The notes below the pieces were generated by a model. It saw only the letters and a program-made list of their open reading frames with translations. It did not search any database and was not told where the DNA came from. This document shows positions 17,188-27,894 of a stretch of 33,242 nt of DNA, in pieces. Each line of letters opens with the position of its first letter. Positions within the stretch are counted from its first letter, which is position 1. Made by a program: the position numbers and the translations under genes. Origin of the DNA: a virus; the IMG/VR virus record IMGVR_UViG_3300044614_000029, positions 1 through 33,242 of that record; one strand, 5' to 3'.

Positions 17188-18741
17188 TTACGCAAAAATA
17201 TCAAAGTCCATCTTGGCTACCGTCATGCCTGGCGCTTTGCCACCCAAGTTATGCGCCCTTGTCATGCGGTTATATTCGCCGCCACCGAGCATTAGGTAGC
17301 CGAATGAGTCGCCAATGTGTGAGTGTTCGTTCTTGTTCGGCGCATCTCGGAACCGTTCCTGGCCTGCACCGACTGCAACGCGCTTGAAGTGGTAGCCACC
17401 TGCCAGAGCCTTTCTCAGCAGCTTGCAGGAGCGGTTGACGATAAGACCTGGCTTGCCATCGATTAGCCGCTGCATAGGCGCTGCAGAGGATTCTCGGCGT
17501 ACCTTGAAGTCGTTGCTGGCAGTGGGTTGAGCCTTTAGCCCCAGTGTGCGCAGGAAATCAAACGCTGTCACCTCATAGATGGCATCACGCGCCATACCGG
17601 CAGGGTCGCCCCAGATCATCACCTGGTGCTGTGGGTATCGCGCATTGAGCTCGGCTAGCAGTTGCATACCGAATCGCTCCAGACCCATGTCAAATGTCAC
17701 GATTTCATGGTGGATCACCCAGCGGCCATTGGGTAAACGCTGGCCAATGGTGGCAGCTGGGGTCAATCCGAAGTCGAGTCCGACCTGAATCGGCACATCA
17801 AGCGACAGATCGGTTTCACCCGACATGGTGGAATCGTCATATTCAGGCCAAACGGGTCGGCCCTCTTGGACGTAGGTGTACAGACCGCCTGCGTAGCACT
17901 TGATCCAATCCAAGTTTTTACCCAGCAGCATCTGCTGGTAGTAGCCGCCGGGCAGGTTGTTGACGTTCTCGGCCTTTGGGTTGACCTTCCACCACTTGCC
18001 AGCAGCGAATATATGGTCGTTGGCCTCGGGATTGTCGGGCAGTTGGTCAGGATCTACCTCGATCACGCCACCAGGCTGCTGCCAAAACTTCCAAGCATAC
18101 TGGCCGGTCATCTTTTCCTTGACGGCCATCTTGTGCCACCAGTGATCGTCGTCTGTTGGGTTGGTATCCATCCAGATACCGTGCCATGTGGCACCGCCAT
18201 CGCGCTTGGTTGGGTAGCGTCCGACCCGGTGGGTCAGGCCATCGATCACCGCCTTGGGCAGCTCTCGCGCTTCGTTGACCCACGCGCCAGTGAGCTCAAG
18301 CGACAGCAGCTTTCTAACGTCTTTTGGCTGGTCTAGCGCCAAGAAAATGACTTCCATATCGATGCCTGCGGCCTCACCGCGGGCTGGCAGCCGGATATGG
18401 TGGGTGATTGGTGGGGTGTGCATCATCGGCCCGAAGGTCGATTCGGGGAACAAGTCGAGCCAGGTCTTGATGGTGGTGGTTTTCAGCATTGGGTAGCTGT
18501 TTCGCACCACCGCCCAGCGCGAATATCGGATGTTATCAATCGGGCTTGGCTTTTGTTGAATCGCCTTCTTGAAGATCTTGGCCGCGCAGCCGTAGCTTTT
18601 GCCGGAGCCCACCGGCCCCATCACGCCCTGGACGAAGGCGTTGCTCTGGAAGAAGTCGTAGATCACCGGGCTCTCGCTGAAGTCGAACCTCAGACCCTCG
18701 CTCGACACCGTCTTGCTGGACTGCTCTTTCGTTTTTGACAC
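17188..18741 (-). CDS. terL: Terminase large subunit (517 aa)
   Basis: The ATPase half carries a Walker A-like GPVGSGKS (residues 42-49), a segment FLALDQPKDVRKLLSLELTG leading to WVNEARE (154-160) at the Walker B/catalytic Glu position, and a following MDTNP (191-195) coupling motif. The nuclease half begins with VGLDFGLTPAATIGQ (320-334), where D323 fits the first RNase-H-like metal ligand, and continues with IWGDPAGMARD. The length is usual. It is the motor that cuts concatemers and pumps DNA through the portal. It lies 18 bases downstream of the small-subunit gene. Confidence 0.95.
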   Translation of the reverse strand: MSKTKEQSSKTVSSEGLRFDFSESPVIYDFFQSNAFVQGVMGPVGSGKSYGCAAKIFKKAIQQKPSPIDNIRYSRWAVVRNSYPMLKTTTIKTWLDLFPESTFGPMMHTPPITHHIRLPARGEAAGIDMEVIFLALDQPKDVRKLLSLELTGAWVNEARELPKAVIDGLTHRVGRYPTKRDGGATWHGIWMDTNPTDDDHWWHKMAVKEKMTGQYAWKFWQQPGGVIEVDPDQLPDNPEANDHIFAAGKWWKVNPKAENVNNLPGGYYQQMLLGKNLDWIKCYAGGLYTYVQEGRPVWPEYDDSTMSGETDLSLDVPIQVGLDFGLTPAATIGQRLPNGRWVIHHEIVTFDMGLERFGMQLLAELNARYPQHQVMIWGDPAGMARDAIYEVTAFDFLRTLGLKAQPTASNDFKVRRESSAAPMQRLIDGKPGLIVNRSCKLLRKALAGGYHFKRVAVGAGQERFRDAPNKNEHSHIGDSFGYLMLGGGEYNRMTRAHNLGGKAPGMTVAKMDFDIFA

Positions 18742-18759
18742 GTTTCCTCCAAAGACTCA

Positions 18760-19176
18760 TTATTGGCCAGACGTTGGCGCGACCACGTTGACATCAATCA
18801 CGCTAGGCTTGTCGTTCTCGTCCGGGTTGTCCAGCAGGCCACTCGCCTTGGCCAGCAGCCGCAAGACACCGACCTTATCGTACAGCTCGATGTCCAAGAA
18901 ACTGTTGCCTTCCTTGTCAGTTCTGACCGATACCTTCTTGATCGCCTGCAAAGCGTGTTCAGGGATCTGGTGCGCAGCCTTGACCTTGACCTGGCCGTCC
19001 TCATCCCAGGTCATGATGTCCGTGATCTTGGTGTTGGCCATGCACAGCAAAGCGTAACTGACCGCTTCTCGGTTCTGGATCAGGGTGTTTGAGCGCTCCA
19101 ACCGACGCTGGATTGAGCGAGTACCACCCCAGTTGGTCAGGGGCGGTACTACGTTGGATTGTTTCTTAGCTGGCAT
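18760..19176 (-). CDS. terS: Terminase small subunit (138 aa)
   Basis: This protein lies immediately upstream of the large subunit. The N-terminal half contains ALLCMANTKITDIMTWDEDG, and the second half KVKAAHQIPEHALQAIKKVS, then ELYDKVGVLRLLAKASGLL. This order of a helical part, a two-strand part and a 'lhDKv-AL-lLak-lGL' helix is that of a common phage small-terminase family. It would recognise packaging DNA and regulate the motor. It overlaps the stop of the SSB-like gene by one base. Confidence 0.85.
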   Translation of the reverse strand: MPAKKQSNVVPPLTNWGGTRSIQRRLERSNTLIQNREAVSYALLCMANTKITDIMTWDEDGQVKVKAAHQIPEHALQAIKKVSVRTDKEGNSFLDIELYDKVGVLRLLAKASGLLDNPDENDKPSVIDVNVVAPTSGQ

Positions 19177-19448
19177 CAGAAGGGTATCTCTTCGTCAGCC
19201 TGCGGCTGAAAGCCATTGCCCTTGGCCTGGTTGTGCGTAGACAAAGGCGGCGCACCAATCGACTTCACCTTGCCAATCTTGATCTTGAAGTACTGCTCAC
19301 CCGCCTTAGTCGTAGCAGGATTCAAGTCAAGGTAATGCACCGTGCCATCCGGCAACATCACGTCACCACGGTAGGCAGCGTGCCAATCCTCCTTCTTTTC
19401 CTTGTTGATAAACGCACTGCCAAAGTTCGGCTTATGTTCCCATCCCAT
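19176..19448 (-). CDS. Small SSB-like / DUF736-like protein with acidic C-terminal tip (90 aa)
   Basis: A short beta-rich domain (GSAFINKEKKEDWHAAYRGD, then LPDGTVHYLDLNPATTKAGE and YFKIKIGKVKSIG) is followed by a Gln/Asn-rich linker and the final residues DEEIPF (85-90). The tip is nearly identical to the DDDIPF tail by which bacterial SSB recruits partner enzymes. The domain pattern resembles DUF736-type small OB-like proteins. A single-strand DNA-binding role in replication or recombination is the likeliest reading, but DNA binding cannot be shown from the sequence. A good ribosome-binding site (AGGAG) supports the start. It opens the late leftward block, just below a terminator. Confidence 0.65.
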   Translation of the reverse strand: MGWEHKPNFGSAFINKEKKEDWHAAYRGDVMLPDGTVHYLDLNPATTKAGEQYFKIKIGKVKSIGAPPLSTHNQAKGNGFQPQADEEIPF

Positions 19449-19472
19449 GTTGTTAATCTCCTAAGTTGTTGC

Positions 19473-19499
19473 AAAAAACCCACCAGACAAAAAAGTGGG
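19473..19499 (-). terminator. Intrinsic terminator candidate before the SSB-like gene
   Basis: On the minus strand CCCAC (19495-19499) pairs with GTGGG (19479-19483) across an 11-base loop, and TTTTTT follows directly (19473-19478). It lies 25 bases upstream of the SSB-like start. The stem is only 5 bp, so termination could be partial and the hairpin could also influence translation. Confidence 0.5.
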
Positions 19500-19799
19500 G
19501 AAAAATTGTGGGGAACCCCCGCTAGCGCTCATGACGGGGGAGGGGGCAAGGGGTGCCTTTTTGACAACGTACCATGCCATCCTGATAACGCAATCGATCC
19601 TGCAGCCAGGTTGTGCTGGCATCGCTTCAACGCAGACACGTCGTTACCCCCCCTGCCTTCCGGACACGTCAAAACACCATACGTTCGTTTGGTCTTTGGA
19701 CACTTTGGATTACAGCCCCTTAGAGCCGTTTGCCATGCGTACCCATGTCTGCCTATTACCTGCACCCTGATCGCGCCTTGTAGGTACCTTAGATCGCGT
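19500..19799. other. Intergenic region between replication and late blocks
   Basis: About 300 bp without a convincing gene. It contains a G/C-rich inverted repeat (CCCCC...GGGGG, about 19516-19541), a doubled CTTTGGA (spacing 9) near 19695, and two GACACGTC copies (about 19634 and 19663). A plus-strand promoter-like pair lies at 19561-19589. A 93-codon minus-strand frame crosses it, but it lacks a ribosome-binding site and has an implausible composition. Confidence 0.5.
19561..19589 (+). promoter_or_regulatory. Promoter-like element directed antisense to the replication gene
   Basis: TTGACA (19561-19566), a spacer of exactly 17 bases, then GATAAC (19584-19589). The -35 is perfect and the -10 matches at four of six positions. 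Transcription from it would run rightward into the replication gene as antisense RNA. No gene on the plus strand explains it, so chance is possible. Confidence 0.3.
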
Positions 19800-20765
19800 T
19801 TAAATGCCATGCCGCGCTGTCAGCTCATCCGATTGAAGCATGATCAGGTCGTTGGCCAGCATCGCGCCATCGGTCGGCAAGGGCAAACCTTCAGCTGCAT
19901 AGCGATCTGACAACTTATCCATTAGCGTTTCCAGTTCTGCAACTGTTGTTTCATTTGCAATGTGTTGAATTGATTCTTGGTTGCTTAAAACATTAAAACC
20001 TTTATTTAAAAATAACCTTAATACTTTATCTATACTTATGTTTTCTGTGTTTAACGCAACCTCTGGATGTAGCCGATCATGTTGCCTATGAGCGGAGTTA
20101 TCCACAGGTCTAGGTTGCCTATGTGTTGCCTCTTCATTGGCAACCTCTGGTGGTAGCGTATTGACTGCTTTTGCTTTCTTCTTTGCTATCTGTTCTTTCA
20201 TCTTAGCAACCGTGACTGTGTCTCCTGACTTTGGCATTTGGTACTCCCTTGGTGGTTGTTGAACTGGCTTAATTACTCCGTTGATCATGTCGTGGATGCG
20301 CTTCAATCCTTCTGGATCTGGTGTCATGTCCTGCATCTGTTTCTCCTTCATTAGCGGTGTCCTAGTGTCTTCAATGCGGCTGGTGACTGCCACAGCTGTC
20401 TCAGCGTCAATGCTCTTATCGAAGATCAGCCGGATGCTGTTTGACCTCTCGCCTCGCCAGCCCTTGCTGATTACTTCCAGGTAACCAGCCTTGACTAGCT
20501 TGCCGACTTGCCGGGTGATTGCCTGCCTGCTGACTCCCAGGTCTTGAGCTAGCCTAGCTTGCCCGACCCAAGTGATCCCAGCTCGGTTGCAGTAGCTGGC
20601 CACCAGCAACAGCGTGCGCAACATGCCCTCGGTCAATGTCTTATCCGTGGCTGCTCGGATCGGCACCACAACCAGCTTGCGCTGGTCTGGCATTGGTTCC
20701 TTCTCGCGGATCTTAGGCTTCTTGGGCAACGCGAACTGCACCACGTTATCAGGCATTGGAGTCAT
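19800..20765 (-). CDS. Replication initiation protein, lambda O-like organisation (321 aa)
   Basis: The N-terminal 110 residues contain a winged-helix DNA-binding domain: LLVASYCNRAGITWVGQARL leads into an HTH (LAQDLGVSRQAITRQVGKLV, about residues 69-88) and a wing (GYLEVISKGWRGERSNSIRL). This fold is usual in phage and plasmid initiators. The central part is Lys/Pro-rich linker; the C-terminal 70 residues (NISIDKVLRLFLNKGFNVLS...) are helical and could contact a helicase or loader. The DNA for the linker contains a perfect DnaA box, repeats and an AT-rich tract, so the gene appears to carry its own origin, as lambda O does. There is no polymerase or helicase gene in the genome, so the protein probably recruits the host replisome. 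The start overlaps the stop of the upstream gene by four bases. Confidence 0.75.
   Translation of the reverse strand: MTPMPDNVVQFALPKKPKIREKEPMPDQRKLVVVPIRAATDKTLTEGMLRTLLLVASYCNRAGITWVGQARLAQDLGVSRQAITRQVGKLVKAGYLEVISKGWRGERSNSIRLIFDKSIDAETAVAVTSRIEDTRTPLMKEKQMQDMTPDPEGLKRIHDMINGVIKPVQQPPREYQMPKSGDTVTVAKMKEQIAKKKAKAVNTLPPEVANEEATHRQPRPVDNSAHRQHDRLHPEVALNTENISIDKVLRLFLNKGFNVLSNQESIQHIANETTVAELETLMDKLSDRYAAEGLPLPTDGAMLANDLIMLQSDELTARHGI
19981..20160. other. Putative replication origin inside the initiator gene
   Basis: An AT-rich tract at about 19981-20050 lies next to a cluster of signals. There is a perfect DnaA box TTATCCACA at 20098-20106. Two direct copies of GCAACCTCTGG lie at 20056-20066 and 20140-20150, 84 bp apart (eight helical turns). 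GTTGCCTATG occurs at 20081-20090 and 20114-20123, a further GTTGCC at 20125-20130, and its inverse GGCAAC at 20139-20144. The arrangement of iterons, DnaA box and unwinding region in the linker-coding part of an initiator gene mirrors lambda ori. Confidence 0.6.
20098..20106 (+). promoter_or_regulatory. DnaA box
   Basis: TTATCCACA matches the strict E. coli R1-type DnaA box exactly. It sits between the two GTTGCCTATG repeats and beside an AT-rich tract in the initiator gene, so chance is less likely than for an isolated match. Confidence 0.6.
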
Positions 20766-21451
20766 GCCACCCTTTCCAACAGGCTAGCTTGAAGCGGTGC
20801 CTGCTGCCAATGTGGTCGGCATTGAATCGAATCCCACTGATCAGCCATCTGCCTTACCGGCACGCCCCGGTTGTGATTGCGAGCAATGTCGGTGCTGTCC
20901 ACGCTGGCAAACGGATAGCCAAAGCGGGTGGCAGCCATACCTCGCAGCATGTGCAACCAAGTCGGCACTCGGCCTGTCTTGCAGATCACGTTCATGGCCT
21001 CGGTCATCCGGCGGTGCCAGCTGCTTGAGCCGACCACCGCATACTGAGCTGACGATCCAATGCAGACCCGCTGCCAGCTGTCGCAAAGCCGCTGCAGCCG
21101 GTCAATTGACTCATGCATGTGCCAGACCGGCGCACCACGCTGACCATGCGGCCATTGATCAAGCAAGGCATCGTTGTCGAACTCGTCGCCAACAATTACA
21201 TCAGGGATGACTGCCCAGCTGGTCGGATAGTCCAGCCACTGTTCGCACCAACCATAAAACCCAGCCCAATCTGTCTGCTTGCCCGAGCGCCATGCCGAGA
21301 ATGCGCCGTTGTCTAGCATCACGCCTTGGCCATGTTTGTGGCACCAATCCACATCATCAGGCCGGTAGTGCGACACGCAAAAGAAACGACCCGCCAGCTG
21401 CTGCAGGACAGTCCTGGGCGTGATTGGCGTGCCGTGGTAATGGATCGTCAT
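20762..21451 (-). CDS. Transglycosylase-like TIM-barrel protein candidate (DpdA/TGT-like motifs, 229 aa)
   Basis: This is a member of a phage protein type that I do not know with an assigned function. Its motifs line up in order with the tRNA-guanine transglycosylase barrel: LDNGAF (46-51) for the DSGGF base-binding loop, VIPDVIVG (81-88) for the next Asp strand, VCIGSS (129-134) for the Gly-rich base loop, LHMLRG (166-171), and DSTDIARN (185-192) for the catalytic Asp strand of the D-(x)n-R-AR type. TGT relatives called DpdA insert 7-deazaguanine into phage or host DNA. No zinc-site cysteine cluster is evident, unlike in tRNA enzymes, and the protein is shorter. DNA base exchange is therefore an inference. 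The start overlaps the upstream gene and the stop overlaps the initiator start. Confidence 0.45.
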   Translation of the reverse strand: MTIHYHGTPITPRTVLQQLAGRFFCVSHYRPDDVDWCHKHGQGVMLDNGAFSAWRSGKQTDWAGFYGWCEQWLDYPTSWAVIPDVIVGDEFDNDALLDQWPHGQRGAPVWHMHESIDRLQRLCDSWQRVCIGSSAQYAVVGSSSWHRRMTEAMNVICKTGRVPTWLHMLRGMAATRFGYPFASVDSTDIARNHNRGVPVRQMADQWDSIQCRPHWQQAPLQASLLERVA

Positions 21452-24819: not shown

Positions 24820-25467
24820 ATGTCCAAATATGTAGCTTACTTTCGAGTTTCCACTGAGCGCCAAGGTCAGTCTGGCCTCGGCCTCGAAGCCCAGCAGGCA
24901 GCAGTCAAAGCCTACGCTGACGGCATCATTCATTCATTCACCGAGATCGAATCAGGCAAGCACGATGACCGGCCACAGCTGGCCGCTGCCATCGCCATGT
25001 GCAAAGCCACAGGCGCTGCTCTGCTGATTGCCAAGATCGACCGACTGAGCCGCCAGGCAGCGTTCCTGCTGACCCTGCGTGACTCTGGCGTGCAGATCGT
25101 TGCAGCCGACATGCCGCACGCTGGTACGCTTGAGTTCGGTATCCGCGCTGTTGTCGCCCAGCATGAGCGCGAAGAAATCAGCCGCCGTACCAAGGCAGCA
25201 CTGCAGGCAGCCAAGGCTCGCGGTGTCAAACTTGGTAACCCAAAACCACAGGCAGCAGCAGAAGCCGGTGCAGCCGCTGGCCGCGCCAACGCAGACGCAT
25301 TTGCAGCTCGCATGATGCCCATCATCGCCGACCTGCAGCGTGCAGGCATCACCAGCCTGCGCTCAATCGCAGCAGCGCTTACAGCTCGCGGCGTGCAGAC
25401 CGCTCGCGGTGGCCGTACCTGGGGCGCTGCCCAAGTCTCTAACCTTATTCAGCGGGGTGCAGTATGA
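24820..25467 (+). CDS. Small serine recombinase of resolvase/invertase type (215 aa)
   Basis: The N-terminal catalytic domain is intact: YFRVST (7-12) with nucleophile Ser11 and Arg9, LLIAKIDRLSRQ (68-79) with Asp74, Arg75 and Arg78, and the E-helix EREEISRRTKAALQAAKARG (116-135). The C-terminal part LRSIAAALTARGVQTARGG is the usual HTH for site recognition. The length fits Tn3/Hin-class enzymes, not large integrases. A ribosome-binding site GGGAGA precedes the ATG. It heads the rightward operon, divergent from the RHH-like gene. Multimer resolution or inversion are possible roles; an inversion partner site was not seen. Confidence 0.9.
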   Translation: MSKYVAYFRVSTERQGQSGLGLEAQQAAVKAYADGIIHSFTEIESGKHDDRPQLAAAIAMCKATGAALLIAKIDRLSRQAAFLLTLRDSGVQIVAADMPHAGTLEFGIRAVVAQHEREEISRRTKAALQAAKARGVKLGNPKPQAAAEAGAAAGRANADAFAARMMPIIADLQRAGITSLRSIAAALTARGVQTARGGRTWGAAQVSNLIQRGAV

Positions 25468-25544: not shown

Positions 25545-25843
25545 TCACCGGCCAGATCTTGCGCGATGCCCAGCTGGCACTGTTCGAGCAACGCGACAGC
25601 GACTTCCTGGCTCAGTGCCGGGAAATAGCAGCTGAGATCTGCAGGCAACAAGGCTCGGTGTCCATCAACGATGTCCGAGCTGCCATCAACCTGCCTGCGG
25701 AGCTGCACCCATCAGTCCTGGGTGCCGTTTTCCGGGGTAAAAAATTCACAGCAATCGGCTACACAGAAGCCGCTCACAAAGCCGCTCACGCTCGCGTGGT
25801 GCGGGTCTATAAACTAACGGAGGAAACATGTCAGGCAAACTAA
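25541..25843 (+). CDS. Small winged-helix-like protein (100 aa), unknown
   Basis: Helical N-terminus (SDFLAQCREIAAEICRQQGS), then VSINDVRAAINLP, and LGAVFRGKKFTAIGYTEAAH with a possible wing. The arrangement of 'G-vsInDVR' with 'hPsvlGAvFRgKkF' is a frequent pattern of short proteins in phage replication and recombination operons. DNA binding is likely but not shown. It overlaps the exonuclease start by 16 bases. Confidence 0.5.
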   Translation: MITGQILRDAQLALFEQRDSDFLAQCREIAAEICRQQGSVSINDVRAAINLPAELHPSVLGAVFRGKKFTAIGYTEAAHKAAHARVVRVYKLTEETCQAN

Positions 25844-26784
25844 CACCGGATTACATGATGAGCGCCAGCCGCCTGCCAGCGCTGCTCGGGCTGTCTCGCT
25901 ACCAGACACCCAACGACGAACTGCAGTACAGCATTAACGCAAGCAAAGGCCTGCCACGCGAAGACAAACAGAACGAAGCGATGTCCTGGGGCGACCGCAT
26001 CGAGCGCCTGATCCTGCTGGAAACAGCCAAGCGCCTTGAGCTGCTCGAGCTCTCAACCGAGTTTGATTCGGCCTTCTTTCACAAGACGTTGCCGCTGGCC
26101 TGCAGCCTGGACGGCTGGGCGCATGGCCGTGGCCAGAAGATCCGCACCGACATGGACGCAGGCATTATCGTGGTCGGCCAAGATGAGATCATGCTGGACG
26201 GGTATGGCGTGCTTGAGGCCAAGCTAACCGCAGTGTCGCCAGAGGAAATGCCAGCGCTTTACCGTGGGCCTGTGCAGTTGCAGGCACAGATGGACATTAT
26301 GCAGGCCAAGTGGGGCGCAGTCTGCGTGCTGTACCAGGGAACGATCTTGCGCATCTTCTTGTTCGAGCCGCACAGGCAGACACTAGAAACGATCAAGACT
26401 GCGGTGCTTGAGTTTCAGAACAAGATTGAGAAGTACAAAGCCACCGGCGAGATTGACTATTACCCACCAGCCAACAGCAAAGATGCCGACCGTATGTACC
26501 CGGCAGCTGATGAGGCTGCGGTGGTCAACCTGCCTGGTCGCGCTGAACAGCTGGCCGACCAGATCCTAGCCGCCAATGCCGCCATCAAAGAGGCAGAAGG
26601 CAAGCGCAGCGAGGCAGAGACAGAGCTCAAAGCTATGCTGGGTCAGGCATCCAAAGGCACTGTCGGACGCTTCGAGATTCGCTGGCCGATGCGTAGCTAC
26701 AAGGCGACACCAGAGAAGGTGGTGCCTGCGAAGGACGCATACAGCATCAGACAATCAACCCTATCAATCAAAGAGGCACTATGA
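25828..26784 (+). CDS. YqaJ-type (lambda exonuclease family) recombination exonuclease (318 aa)
   Basis: The YqaJ/alkaline exonuclease signature is complete: MSASRLPALLGLSRY (11-25), SWGDRIERLILLE (53-65) with the helix Glu, LACSLDGWA (90-98) with a metal Asp, GVLEAKLTA (127-135) giving E-x-K, and VQLQAQMDIM (149-158) for the Q-x-x-Q-x-Q helix. The C-terminus has a helical region and a small beta part. It would resect double-strand ends so that the RecT-like protein downstream can anneal. It is followed at ATGA by a 57-residue gene. Confidence 0.88.
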   Translation: MSGKLTPDYMMSASRLPALLGLSRYQTPNDELQYSINASKGLPREDKQNEAMSWGDRIERLILLETAKRLELLELSTEFDSAFFHKTLPLACSLDGWAHGRGQKIRTDMDAGIIVVGQDEIMLDGYGVLEAKLTAVSPEEMPALYRGPVQLQAQMDIMQAKWGAVCVLYQGTILRIFLFEPHRQTLETIKTAVLEFQNKIEKYKATGEIDYYPPANSKDADRMYPAADEAAVVNLPGRAEQLADQILAANAAIKEAEGKRSEAETELKAMLGQASKGTVGRFEIRWPMRSYKATPEKVVPAKDAYSIRQSTLSIKEAL

Positions 26785-26954
26785 CCAAGATCGAAGAGGC
26801 GCACGCCAGAGCTGTTGTCGCGCTGCTGAATACATTGCCTGAATGTACCGAGGATCAAGCCGAAGAGATCGTCGAGTCATTCACCGCGCTTGTGCTGTAC
26901 ACCATTGAAGCATTCTTACCAGGAGACATTGATGACCAACCTCGTTACAACTAG
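26781..26954 (+). CDS. Small acidic helical protein (57 aa), unknown
   Basis: It reads MTKIEEAHARAVVALLNTLP and ends GDIDDQPRYN. The start overlaps the exonuclease stop (ATGA) and the end overlaps the annealase start by 23 bases. It is acidic and helical. No family recognised; the coupling suggests it belongs to the recombination unit. Confidence 0.5.
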   Translation: MTKIEEAHARAVVALLNTLPECTEDQAEEIVESFTALVLYTIEAFLPGDIDDQPRYN

Positions 26955-27894
26955 ACAGGGCTTCGCGCCTGCAACCTTTACCGAAGCCCGGCAGTTTGCC
27001 GAAGAGCTGGCATCGTCCAGCCTAGTACCAAAAGCCTACACTGGCAAGCCGCTGGATATACTGGTGGCCATGCAGTGGGGCGCAGAGATCGGCTTGGCAC
27101 CCATGCAGGCACTGCAAAACATCGCAGTAATCAATGGCAAGCCCAGCGTGTACGGTGACGCAGCAATAGCGTTGGTGCAGTCCAGCCCACATTGCGAAGA
27201 CATCGAAGAGTATTTTGAGAACGAAGGCACGCCAAACCCAGTAGCTGTCTGCGTTGCAAAGCGCAAAGGTCGCAAGCCAGTGGTTGCCAAGTTCAGCGTC
27301 GAAGATGCTAAAAAAGCTGGCTTGTGGAGCAAGCAGGGGCCGTGGACGGCGTACCCAAAGCGGATGCTGCAGATGCGAGCTCGAGGGTTTGCGCTGCGTG
27401 ATGCCTTTCCTGACGCGCTGAAGGGCTTGATCACAGTCGAAGAGGCGCAAGACTTCCCGCCAGAGGCCAAGCCACAGCCAGCCAAGAATATCACGCCGCT
27501 GCCATCTAACCCGCTGGATCGGATCGCACCACCACCACCGCCGGTAGATGAGTATGTGCCGGATCTGGAGGAAGCCGTTGTTGTAGTGCCAGCGCCAGCA
27601 GGTGAGTTCCAGCTGATGGTGCCAGGCAAGGACGGTGGCGAGCCGGTGGTCAAGTCTACCCACGCAACGCAGCTGGATTGGTCTGCAGCCTACGAAGAGC
27701 TGGCCGACAAGACCATGTCAGCAGGCAAGGCAAGCGAGCGTGACCGGATGACAGCGCTAAAAAATTTCAAGGAAGCGAACCAGGCGATGTTCAAACAGAT
27801 GGAGCCTGGTGCCATGCTGCAGCACTCGCAGGCCTACCAGAAGCGGCTGCGAATGCTGGGCGCTGAAATGAACAAGGAAAAAAATCCCGACTGA
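26932..27894 (+). CDS. RecT-type single-strand annealing protein (320 aa)
   Basis: The start follows AGGAG with proper spacing; an in-frame start 14 codons upstream has none. The core RecT pattern is clear: ATFTEARQFAEELASSSLVP (9-28), then PLDILVAMQWGAEIGLAPMQ and ALQNIAVINGKPSVYGDAA, and later GPWTAYPKRMLQMRARGFAL with DAFPDALKGLITVEEAQD. The C-terminal third is Pro-rich linker and a helical tail. It anneals the strands exposed by the YqaJ nuclease. The rightward operon ends here. Confidence 0.88.
   Translation: MTNLVTTRQGFAPATFTEARQFAEELASSSLVPKAYTGKPLDILVAMQWGAEIGLAPMQALQNIAVINGKPSVYGDAAIALVQSSPHCEDIEEYFENEGTPNPVAVCVAKRKGRKPVVAKFSVEDAKKAGLWSKQGPWTAYPKRMLQMRARGFALRDAFPDALKGLITVEEAQDFPPEAKPQPAKNITPLPSNPLDRIAPPPPPVDEYVPDLEEAVVVVPAPAGEFQLMVPGKDGGEPVVKSTHATQLDWSAAYEELADKTMSAGKASERDRMTALKNFKEANQAMFKQMEPGAMLQHSQAYQKRLRMLGAEMNKEKNPD

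Follow-up and report, generated by a model that had tools for sequence, protein, structure and literature searches.

Results

The window, that is, the whole stretch of DNA analysed here, is an IMG/VR virus record of 33,242 bases, and on its minus strand an O-like replication initiator, a gap, a 90-aa protein and the terminase subunits, first a probable small one and then the large one (TerL), follow each other in this order. The initiator (321 aa, 19800-20765), which matches phrog_391, phrog_678 and HTH_36, is the upstream neighbour of the gap, and its stop is separated from the next start by 351 bases (19449-19799), so that the unusual gap to which a sequence-only reading had drawn attention is real. 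The downstream neighbour, the 90-aa protein (19176-19448), gave no PHROG or Pfam match; it is called ssDNA-binding-like after its counterpart in Methylophilales phage MEP301, gp50, which is annotated as an ssDNA binding protein. The probable terminase small subunit (18760-19176) matches PF03592 with E=4.4e-5 and 24.6 bits, below the cut-off of 26.1. TerL (17188-18741; phrog_2, E=2.1e-19) is 74.5% identical to that of MEP301, the nearest isolate by this protein, and the DNA of 18700-20800 has no match in the phage collection. Inside the initiator gene, an origin-like stretch (19990-20160) combines an AT-rich block with a DnaA-box-like TTATCCACA (near 20099); GTTGCCTATG is repeated there, at 20081 and 20114, and 20112-20146 form an inverted repeat. 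Beside the same gene, a 229-aa protein (20762-21451) shows a partial match (profile positions 10-215 of 509) to phrog_887, the queuine tRNA-ribosyltransferase phage family.

Three open reading frames cross the gap, one of 93 aa on the minus strand and two of 91 and 225 aa on the plus strand. In close relatives the 93-aa frame is cut short (to 55 aa in L163, L155, L018 and L013), next to a G-run of unequal length among relatives. We therefore take the gap to be non-coding and reject a gene in it, this frame not being kept open; there is neither a conserved reading frame nor a conserved protein.

Relatives were collected in searches with TerL (at least 80 loci), the initiator (at least 80 loci) and the 90-aa protein (45 loci). 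The gap, whose conservation in related phages had been left to be checked, occupies this position in dozens of related viral contigs. Wherever the initiator and the 90-aa gene share a stretch it measures at least 249 bases, mostly 286-460, also when the initiators are 35-50% identical. In an alignment of 151 sequences conservation peaks in two blocks, core I (19667-19702) and core II (19489-19556), and the gap is likely functional, as had been suspected. The left module (19703-19799, minus strand), which separates core I from the initiator stop by 97 bases, is moderately conserved in the alignments and possibly an accessory or host-factor region; it is almost absent in L542 and L510, both of which retain the recombinase and the palindrome described below. 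Both ends of a 33,137-base contig (L131/L294) map to one spot in the initiator gene, which suggests that this genome of about 33.1 kb is circularly closed or permuted. Near both ends of two records, of 44,837 bases (L636/L637) and 40,209 bases (L638/L639), the same regions recur with 80-95% identity; exceeding the usual 33-35 kb in length, these records are probably chimeric assemblies of related phages, and their end repeats were set aside as evidence of multimers.

The smaller elements that the sequence-only reading had listed in the gap fared unequally. The C5/G5 inverted repeat (19516-19520/19536-19540) and the short direct repeats (13 nt, at 19489 and 19502) exist. The terminator-like hairpin CCCAC-N11-GTGGG-TTTTTT (19473-19499, minus strand) is present as a sequence but is not called by the terminator scan, and the plus-strand string TTGACA-N17-GATAAC (19561-19589) exists but is at chance level as a promoter. 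Over 19000-20300, and at the thresholds of the tools, the promoter scan returned 0 sites versus a mean of 1.0 in shuffles and the terminator scan 0 versus a mean of 1.5. The promoter-like string is absent from the alignment in relatives such as L028 and L141, and neither scan nor alignment yielded a sigma-70 promoter with conserved -35 and -10 in the gap.

The antisense RNA, comparable to OOP, that had also been imagined here did not hold up: besides the loss of its promoter string in these two relatives, in 40 diverse relatives the folding z averages -0.76 on the sense and -0.10 on the antisense strand, and no Rfam family is matched at gathering score (one regional match, E=0.17, is at chance level). 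Moreover, the strongest covariation falls in columns that form no stacked helices, and a conserved RNA structure is supported neither by folding nor by covariation or Rfam. Since the 93-aa frame is not conserved, folding is weak on both strands and the covarying columns are unstacked, we regard the gap as a DNA-level element.

Core I went unnamed in the sequence-only reading, a recombinase target site lying outside its options. It is an imperfect 36-bp palindrome on the minus strand, TGTCCAAAGACCAAACG-AA-CGTATGGTGTTTTGACG (19667-19702), with two 17-bp arms around a 2-bp centre (19684-19685) and 13 of 17 symmetric pairs. The window holds one exact copy of the sequence. A weight matrix gives 45.6 at this place (28.6 on the opposite strand) and -11.8 at the runner-up place, thus no second site in the window. 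The consensus of the main group is TGTMCAAA....CA.ACG AA CGTATGGGTTTTGTACA. Among 94 distinct copies from relatives the mean is 12.0 of 17 symmetric pairs, versus 4.6 when the left arms are shuffled, the pattern that found these copies having fixed 2 of the 17 left positions and wanted a right arm near the consensus. The mismatches between the arms (65 G-T, 40 A-C and 367 other) are not RNA-like.

When 49 records were searched with a 22-base pattern covering centre and right arm (at most 3 mismatches), exactly one copy was found in 36 and two copies in none; a reversed control pattern matched 2 of the 49. The 13 records without the pattern are G023, G024, G030 and 10 contigs of 10.9-30.4 kb that were chosen for the recombinase and may not reach the gap. 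In one clade (L091, L092, L095, L066 and L277) core I is inverted in place relative to its flanks, so that its orientation to the neighbours is not essential. Within the cluster of the window (13 relatives) there is no identity step at core I, hence no sign of exchange there. Ends of fetched stretches do not pile up at the palindrome, which speaks against a cos site at this position.

A small serine recombinase of 215 aa is encoded on the plus strand (24820-25467; PF00239, E=8.1e-26; phrog_125, DNA invertase), 5 kb from core I. By sequence, it matches DNA-invertase and gamma-delta/Tn3 resolvase chains in the PDB. Its catalytic residues, located against a gamma-delta resolvase reference, are Y6, R8, S10, R45 and R68, present in all 57 distinct recombinase/palindrome pairs, and R71, present in 56 of them. 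PF07508 reaches 17.1 bits over 35 residues, below its cut-off of 21.1. A structure prediction run without an alignment, with a mean pLDDT of 53 and confidence in the C-terminal part only, was set aside.

Recombinase and palindrome occur together. Each was found in 30 of 33 long related records: 29 have both, two (G023 and G024) have neither, one (G030) has the recombinase only and one (G033, a 29.4-kb contig) the palindrome pattern only. In a pattern-free test, in which any 17-2-17 palindrome with at least 11 of 17 pairs between the initiator and core II was counted, 76 of 94 loci with the recombinase were positive and 18 fell below this level, versus 0 of 4 loci without it (Fisher p=0.002, uncorrected for kinship). 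The recombinase-negative cases are few, and some of them belong to a single lineage (G023/G024; L467 resembles L532). The gaps of G023 and G024 keep core II though they have neither recombinase nor palindrome, and the same is true of L467, found via TerL; core II is a second element, independent of core I.

Furthermore, lineages with diverged recombinases have palindromes altered in both arms. This is the case in L482 (CGTAACAGACCCTAACG/CGTTTGGGTTTGTGACG), L510 (TGTACAAAATCAAATGG/CGATTCGAGTTTGTACA), L542 and L608, the latter with a TGTATAA-ended site, and in L507 (TGTCACGCTAGCAAACG/CGTTTGATGGCAGGACA), L533, L539 and L597, where both arms have changed and 12-13 of 17 pairs are symmetric (P<=0.01). 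In partial Mantel tests (n=39) palindrome distance is correlated with recombinase distance given TerL (r=0.26, p=0.001), and with TerL distance given the recombinase (r=0.20, p=0.011). Rechecking 16 recombinase-positive loci of low matrix score revealed a palindrome at P<=0.03 in five (L507, L530, L533, L539 and L597) and none in the other 11; none was found in 8 rechecked loci without a recombinase match, two of which (L578 and L595) are probably unrelated. A group with 62-70% identical recombinases (L514, L523, L527, L534, L579 and L601) shows no palindrome at P<0.4, and MEP301 has a 38% identical recombinase, yet no such palindrome in its gap.

Homologs of the recombinase are found outside phages, 9 of them in a scan of bacterial genomes, while 3,529 plasmid records matched. 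We took 23 loci, 14 on plasmids (from 40 matches listed of the 3,529) and 9 on contigs of bacterial assemblies, and compared the stretch from 200 bases before to 40 bases after the recombinase start, annotated or set by us, with block shuffles. A 17-2-17 palindrome was present in 11 of the 23 at P<=0.04 each, where about one is expected, and in 8 of the 11 at P<=0.003; no significant one was seen in the other 12. Relative to the recombinase start, the ends of the 11 palindromes range from 52 bases upstream to 1 base downstream, and 8 of them have the inner core ACG-NN-CGT. Pairing is complete (17/17) in L620 (Methylobacterium nodulans pMNOD05) and reaches 16/17 in L615 (Hymenobacter psychrophilus), L626 (H. 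swuensis pHsw2) and L629 (Skermanella rosea pSR-5). The centres are AA, TT, AG or CT in 76 of 76 phage sites and self-complementary in none of the 11 plasmid and bacterial sites, which fits the need of orientation-sensitive joining.

Several of the carriers are small plasmids of 4.9-10 kb; a ParA-type gene lies nearby on L617, L618 and L623, and a replication initiator is annotated nearby on L618 and L623. Additional 10-nt half-sites within 260 bases on either side were absent in 8 of 9 plasmid and bacterial loci, the ninth (L616) having two weak ones. By the same crude test three phage gaps have 1, 1 and 4 weak ones (0.4-0.8 by chance), L475 with its four exceeding chance. This half-site search produced no convincing equivalent of the classical res accessory subsites II and III beside core I.

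Core II (19489-19556, minus strand) is seen in the alignments as a C-rich block, a spacer, GGGG, an octamer and CnnAATTTTTCCCCACTTTTTT. The octamer (GGTTCCCC in the window, 19510-19517, minus strand) is variable but of fixed length: 219 distinct copies of core II have, in this order, the C-rich block, GGGG, 8 bases of mostly free sequence and CnnAATTTTTCC. The flanks change much less than the octamer, whose divergence in well-filled bins is about equal to, or up to twice, that of TerL fourfold sites (0.321 versus 0.166 in the 10-20% bin, 218 pairs). It is 0.014 versus 0.038 in the 2-5% bin (9 pairs), 0.125 in the 0-2% bin (3 pairs) and 0.056 in the 0% bin (9 pairs). Hypermutation of the octamer, hinted at by the close pairs, was dropped, as the rate in the well-filled bin is at most about twice neutral by comparison with TerL fourfold sites. 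Mapped ends of fetched stretches, which are not all true contig ends, fall in the octamer in 4 of 203 cases (average about 0.07 per base), as was noticed afterwards.

An independent DNA pattern for core II matched at least 120 stretches, and 105 new loci were examined. The initiator or TerL is present in 84 of them (both genes in 48), and core II invariably follows the initiator and/or precedes TerL in these 84; the other 21 have neither gene, and at least some of these are unrelated chance matches. A looser pattern finds core II in MEP301, while the gap profile has no match in the MEP301 stretches, and core II was not found in the fetched stretches of BcepC6B, Ss1, VA-RY-3, Hodr and two Microcystis phages. 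Between core II and the first ORF of at least 60 aa that follows it lie 49, 160 and 301 bases (quartiles, n=76), and core II lies about 1.5 kb from the ssb gene in MEP301. In L018, L089, L102, L116 and L118 differing small genes are inserted at one point just after core II; in the first three the extra gene, of 75, 103 and 136 aa respectively, stands between the conserved part and the 90-aa gene, with the terminator-like hairpin 3' of it.

Discussion

Our analysis well supports core I as the predicted target of the phage recombinase. Indeed, palindromes of the same geometry stand at the recombinase starts of plasmid and bacterial loci, so that core I is likely the kind of site that this recombinase subfamily acts on. 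What the reaction would be for is suggested by two arguments. The small plasmids with rep and parA genes that carry the relatives, together with their palindromes, point to multimer resolution as a task of these plasmid enzymes, and the single core I per genome would imply recombination between genome copies, hence multimer resolution in the phage too. We thus consider it probable that core I is a plasmid-type resolvase target, situated where the replication genes border on the packaging genes and serving in the resolution of genome multimers.

Small serine recombinases bind the arms of their site as a dimer, synapse two sites as a tetramer, cut at the 2-bp centre, rotate and rejoin. Here, a recombinase dimer would bind the two 17-bp arms of core I, and four subunits would bring two such sites together, cut them at the 2-bp centre, rotate and rejoin the ends. 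With a single site per genome, the partner would have to be core I of another genome copy, and the natural outcome would be that circular dimers or concatemers are broken down into unit genomes, which is what plasmid resolvases achieve. The multimers themselves could arise from replication and from the recombination genes of the phage, a YqaJ/RecE-like gene (25828-26784) and a RecT-like gene (26890-27894), both of which can help make them. Several points stand against this resolvase reading: headful packaging could suffer if concatemers are resolved, gene and site are 5 kb apart, 12 of the 23 homologous loci have no significant palindrome, and the gap of MEP301 has none of this kind. The 18 recombinase-positive phage loci below 11 pairs, the group with 62-70% identical recombinases, the small number of recombinase-negative cases, the lack of convincing accessory half-sites and the missing identity step at core I in the cluster of the window count against it too.

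The packaging site and the late promoter that the sequence-only reading had offered for the gap were weighed against the resolvase reading. It is possible, though we doubt it, that the gap is mainly a cos/pac region, with core II as the recognition or cut site, the octamer as cohesive end or cut spacer and the palindrome as a terminase-related element. The position before the terminase genes, the consistent placement of core II in 84 of 84 loci and an octamer of fixed length and free sequence, which would suit a cut segment, are all compatible with it, and the four ends in the octamer are a weak hint in the same direction, although they may be assembly breaks caused by variation. However, ends do not accumulate at the palindrome, many contigs run through the gap, the 33,137-base contig has both its breaks within the initiator gene, and MEP301 was assembled as a circle (PMC8024684). 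Moreover, core II persists where palindrome and recombinase have both disappeared. The packaging idea may remain for core II only. Equally tentative is the proposal that core II is the promoter or leader of the late operon, the gap being an ordinary regulatory boundary and the palindrome the operator of a transcription factor. The inserted genes of L018, L089 and L102 lie directly 3' of core II, each with a ribosome site, and insertions occur after core II and never before it in these relatives, as if an operon started there; but the scan found no sigma-70 promoter, and the spacing between core II and the ORF after it varies widely, the ssb gene of MEP301 being about 1.5 kb away. An operator would explain neither the joint loss of palindrome and recombinase nor the geometry of the palindromes at plasmid recombinase genes. 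Repression of its own promoter by a recombinase bound to such a site does occur, but in this phage 5 kb separate the gene from the palindrome. Core II itself may be a packaging site or a late promoter or leader.

The two remaining alternatives are much weaker candidates. Use of the palindrome as an attP for integration by the recombinase would agree with the presence of a serine recombinase and of one site in each genome, but the 215-aa enzyme lacks the large C-terminal part of serine integrases, the 35 residues resembling PF07508 being below threshold, and we judge it very unlikely. Still less credible is a gap encoding a regulatory RNA, antisense to the initiator and OOP-like, or another structured RNA: a weak folding bias does exist on the sense strand (z<-2 in 7 of 40 relatives, versus 1 of 40 on the other strand), but the mean z-scores, the Rfam search and the unstacked covarying columns speak against it, and the mismatches of the palindrome are mostly not G-U.

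Taken as a resolvase and its site, the pair resembles several known systems. The catalytic domain and residues and the inverted half-sites round a 2-bp centre are like those of Tn3/gamma-delta resolvase and res. In those systems res consists of a 28-bp site I plus sites II and III, whereas the phage site has 36 bp and accessory half-sites were not found in our search. The enzyme is also similar in sequence to a DNA invertase; invertases of the Hin/Gin type likewise use a simple palindromic site, and the centre of hix and gix is AA, like that of core I in the window; in contrast to these systems there is one site per genome in the phage (36 matched records), so no invertible segment. The proposed phage system would work like Cre-lox of P1, a phage-borne tyrosine recombinase that resolves multimers at one site in a phage living as a plasmid, but the enzymes are unrelated (serine versus tyrosine).

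For the Psychrobacter plasmids pP62BP1 and pP60P2, a putative multimer resolution by small serine recombinases is mentioned in the parts of PMC3346939 and PMC3632715 at hand; these parts describe no site of the present kind, and the likeness to the phage enzyme is by description only. With plasmid multimer resolution in general the phage system shares a small serine recombinase, whose homologs are on plasmids and in some cases beside parA/rep, and a 17-2-17 palindrome, found at the gene start in half of the homolog loci; here the carrier is a tailed phage, and the site lies 5 kb from the gene, between the initiator and terminase genes. MEP301 (MW452941), the nearest isolate by TerL, has a similar gene order, a recombinase (gp04) and the core II pattern, but a palindrome of the core I kind was not found in its gap. 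In our searches of the open PMC literature no paper was recognised as a description of this 36-bp 17-2-17 site. What would be new here is a plasmid-type resolution machinery in a clade of tailed phages, with a simple site far from the gene.

In conclusion, an unexplained gap becomes a testable pair of recombinase and site common to many uncultured phages, and a subfamily of small serine recombinases, also present on plasmids, gains a predicted simple site of defined geometry. The recombinase of MEP301-like phages has been doubted in print (PMC8024684); our results suggest that its catalytic residues are kept in the clade. For the mapping of packaging ends or of late transcription, core II with its octamer is an obvious place to look. 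One could go as far as to imagine that a large clade of presumably lytic phages took over plasmid-type multimer resolution with its simple 36-bp site and put this site where replication and packaging genes meet, next to core II, with the octamer marking the terminase cut and resolution and packaging being decided together at a single spot, a scenario that we hold to be unlikely. The resolvase reading itself raises a puzzle, namely why a resolvase would be retained by a phage whose packaging probably requires concatemers.
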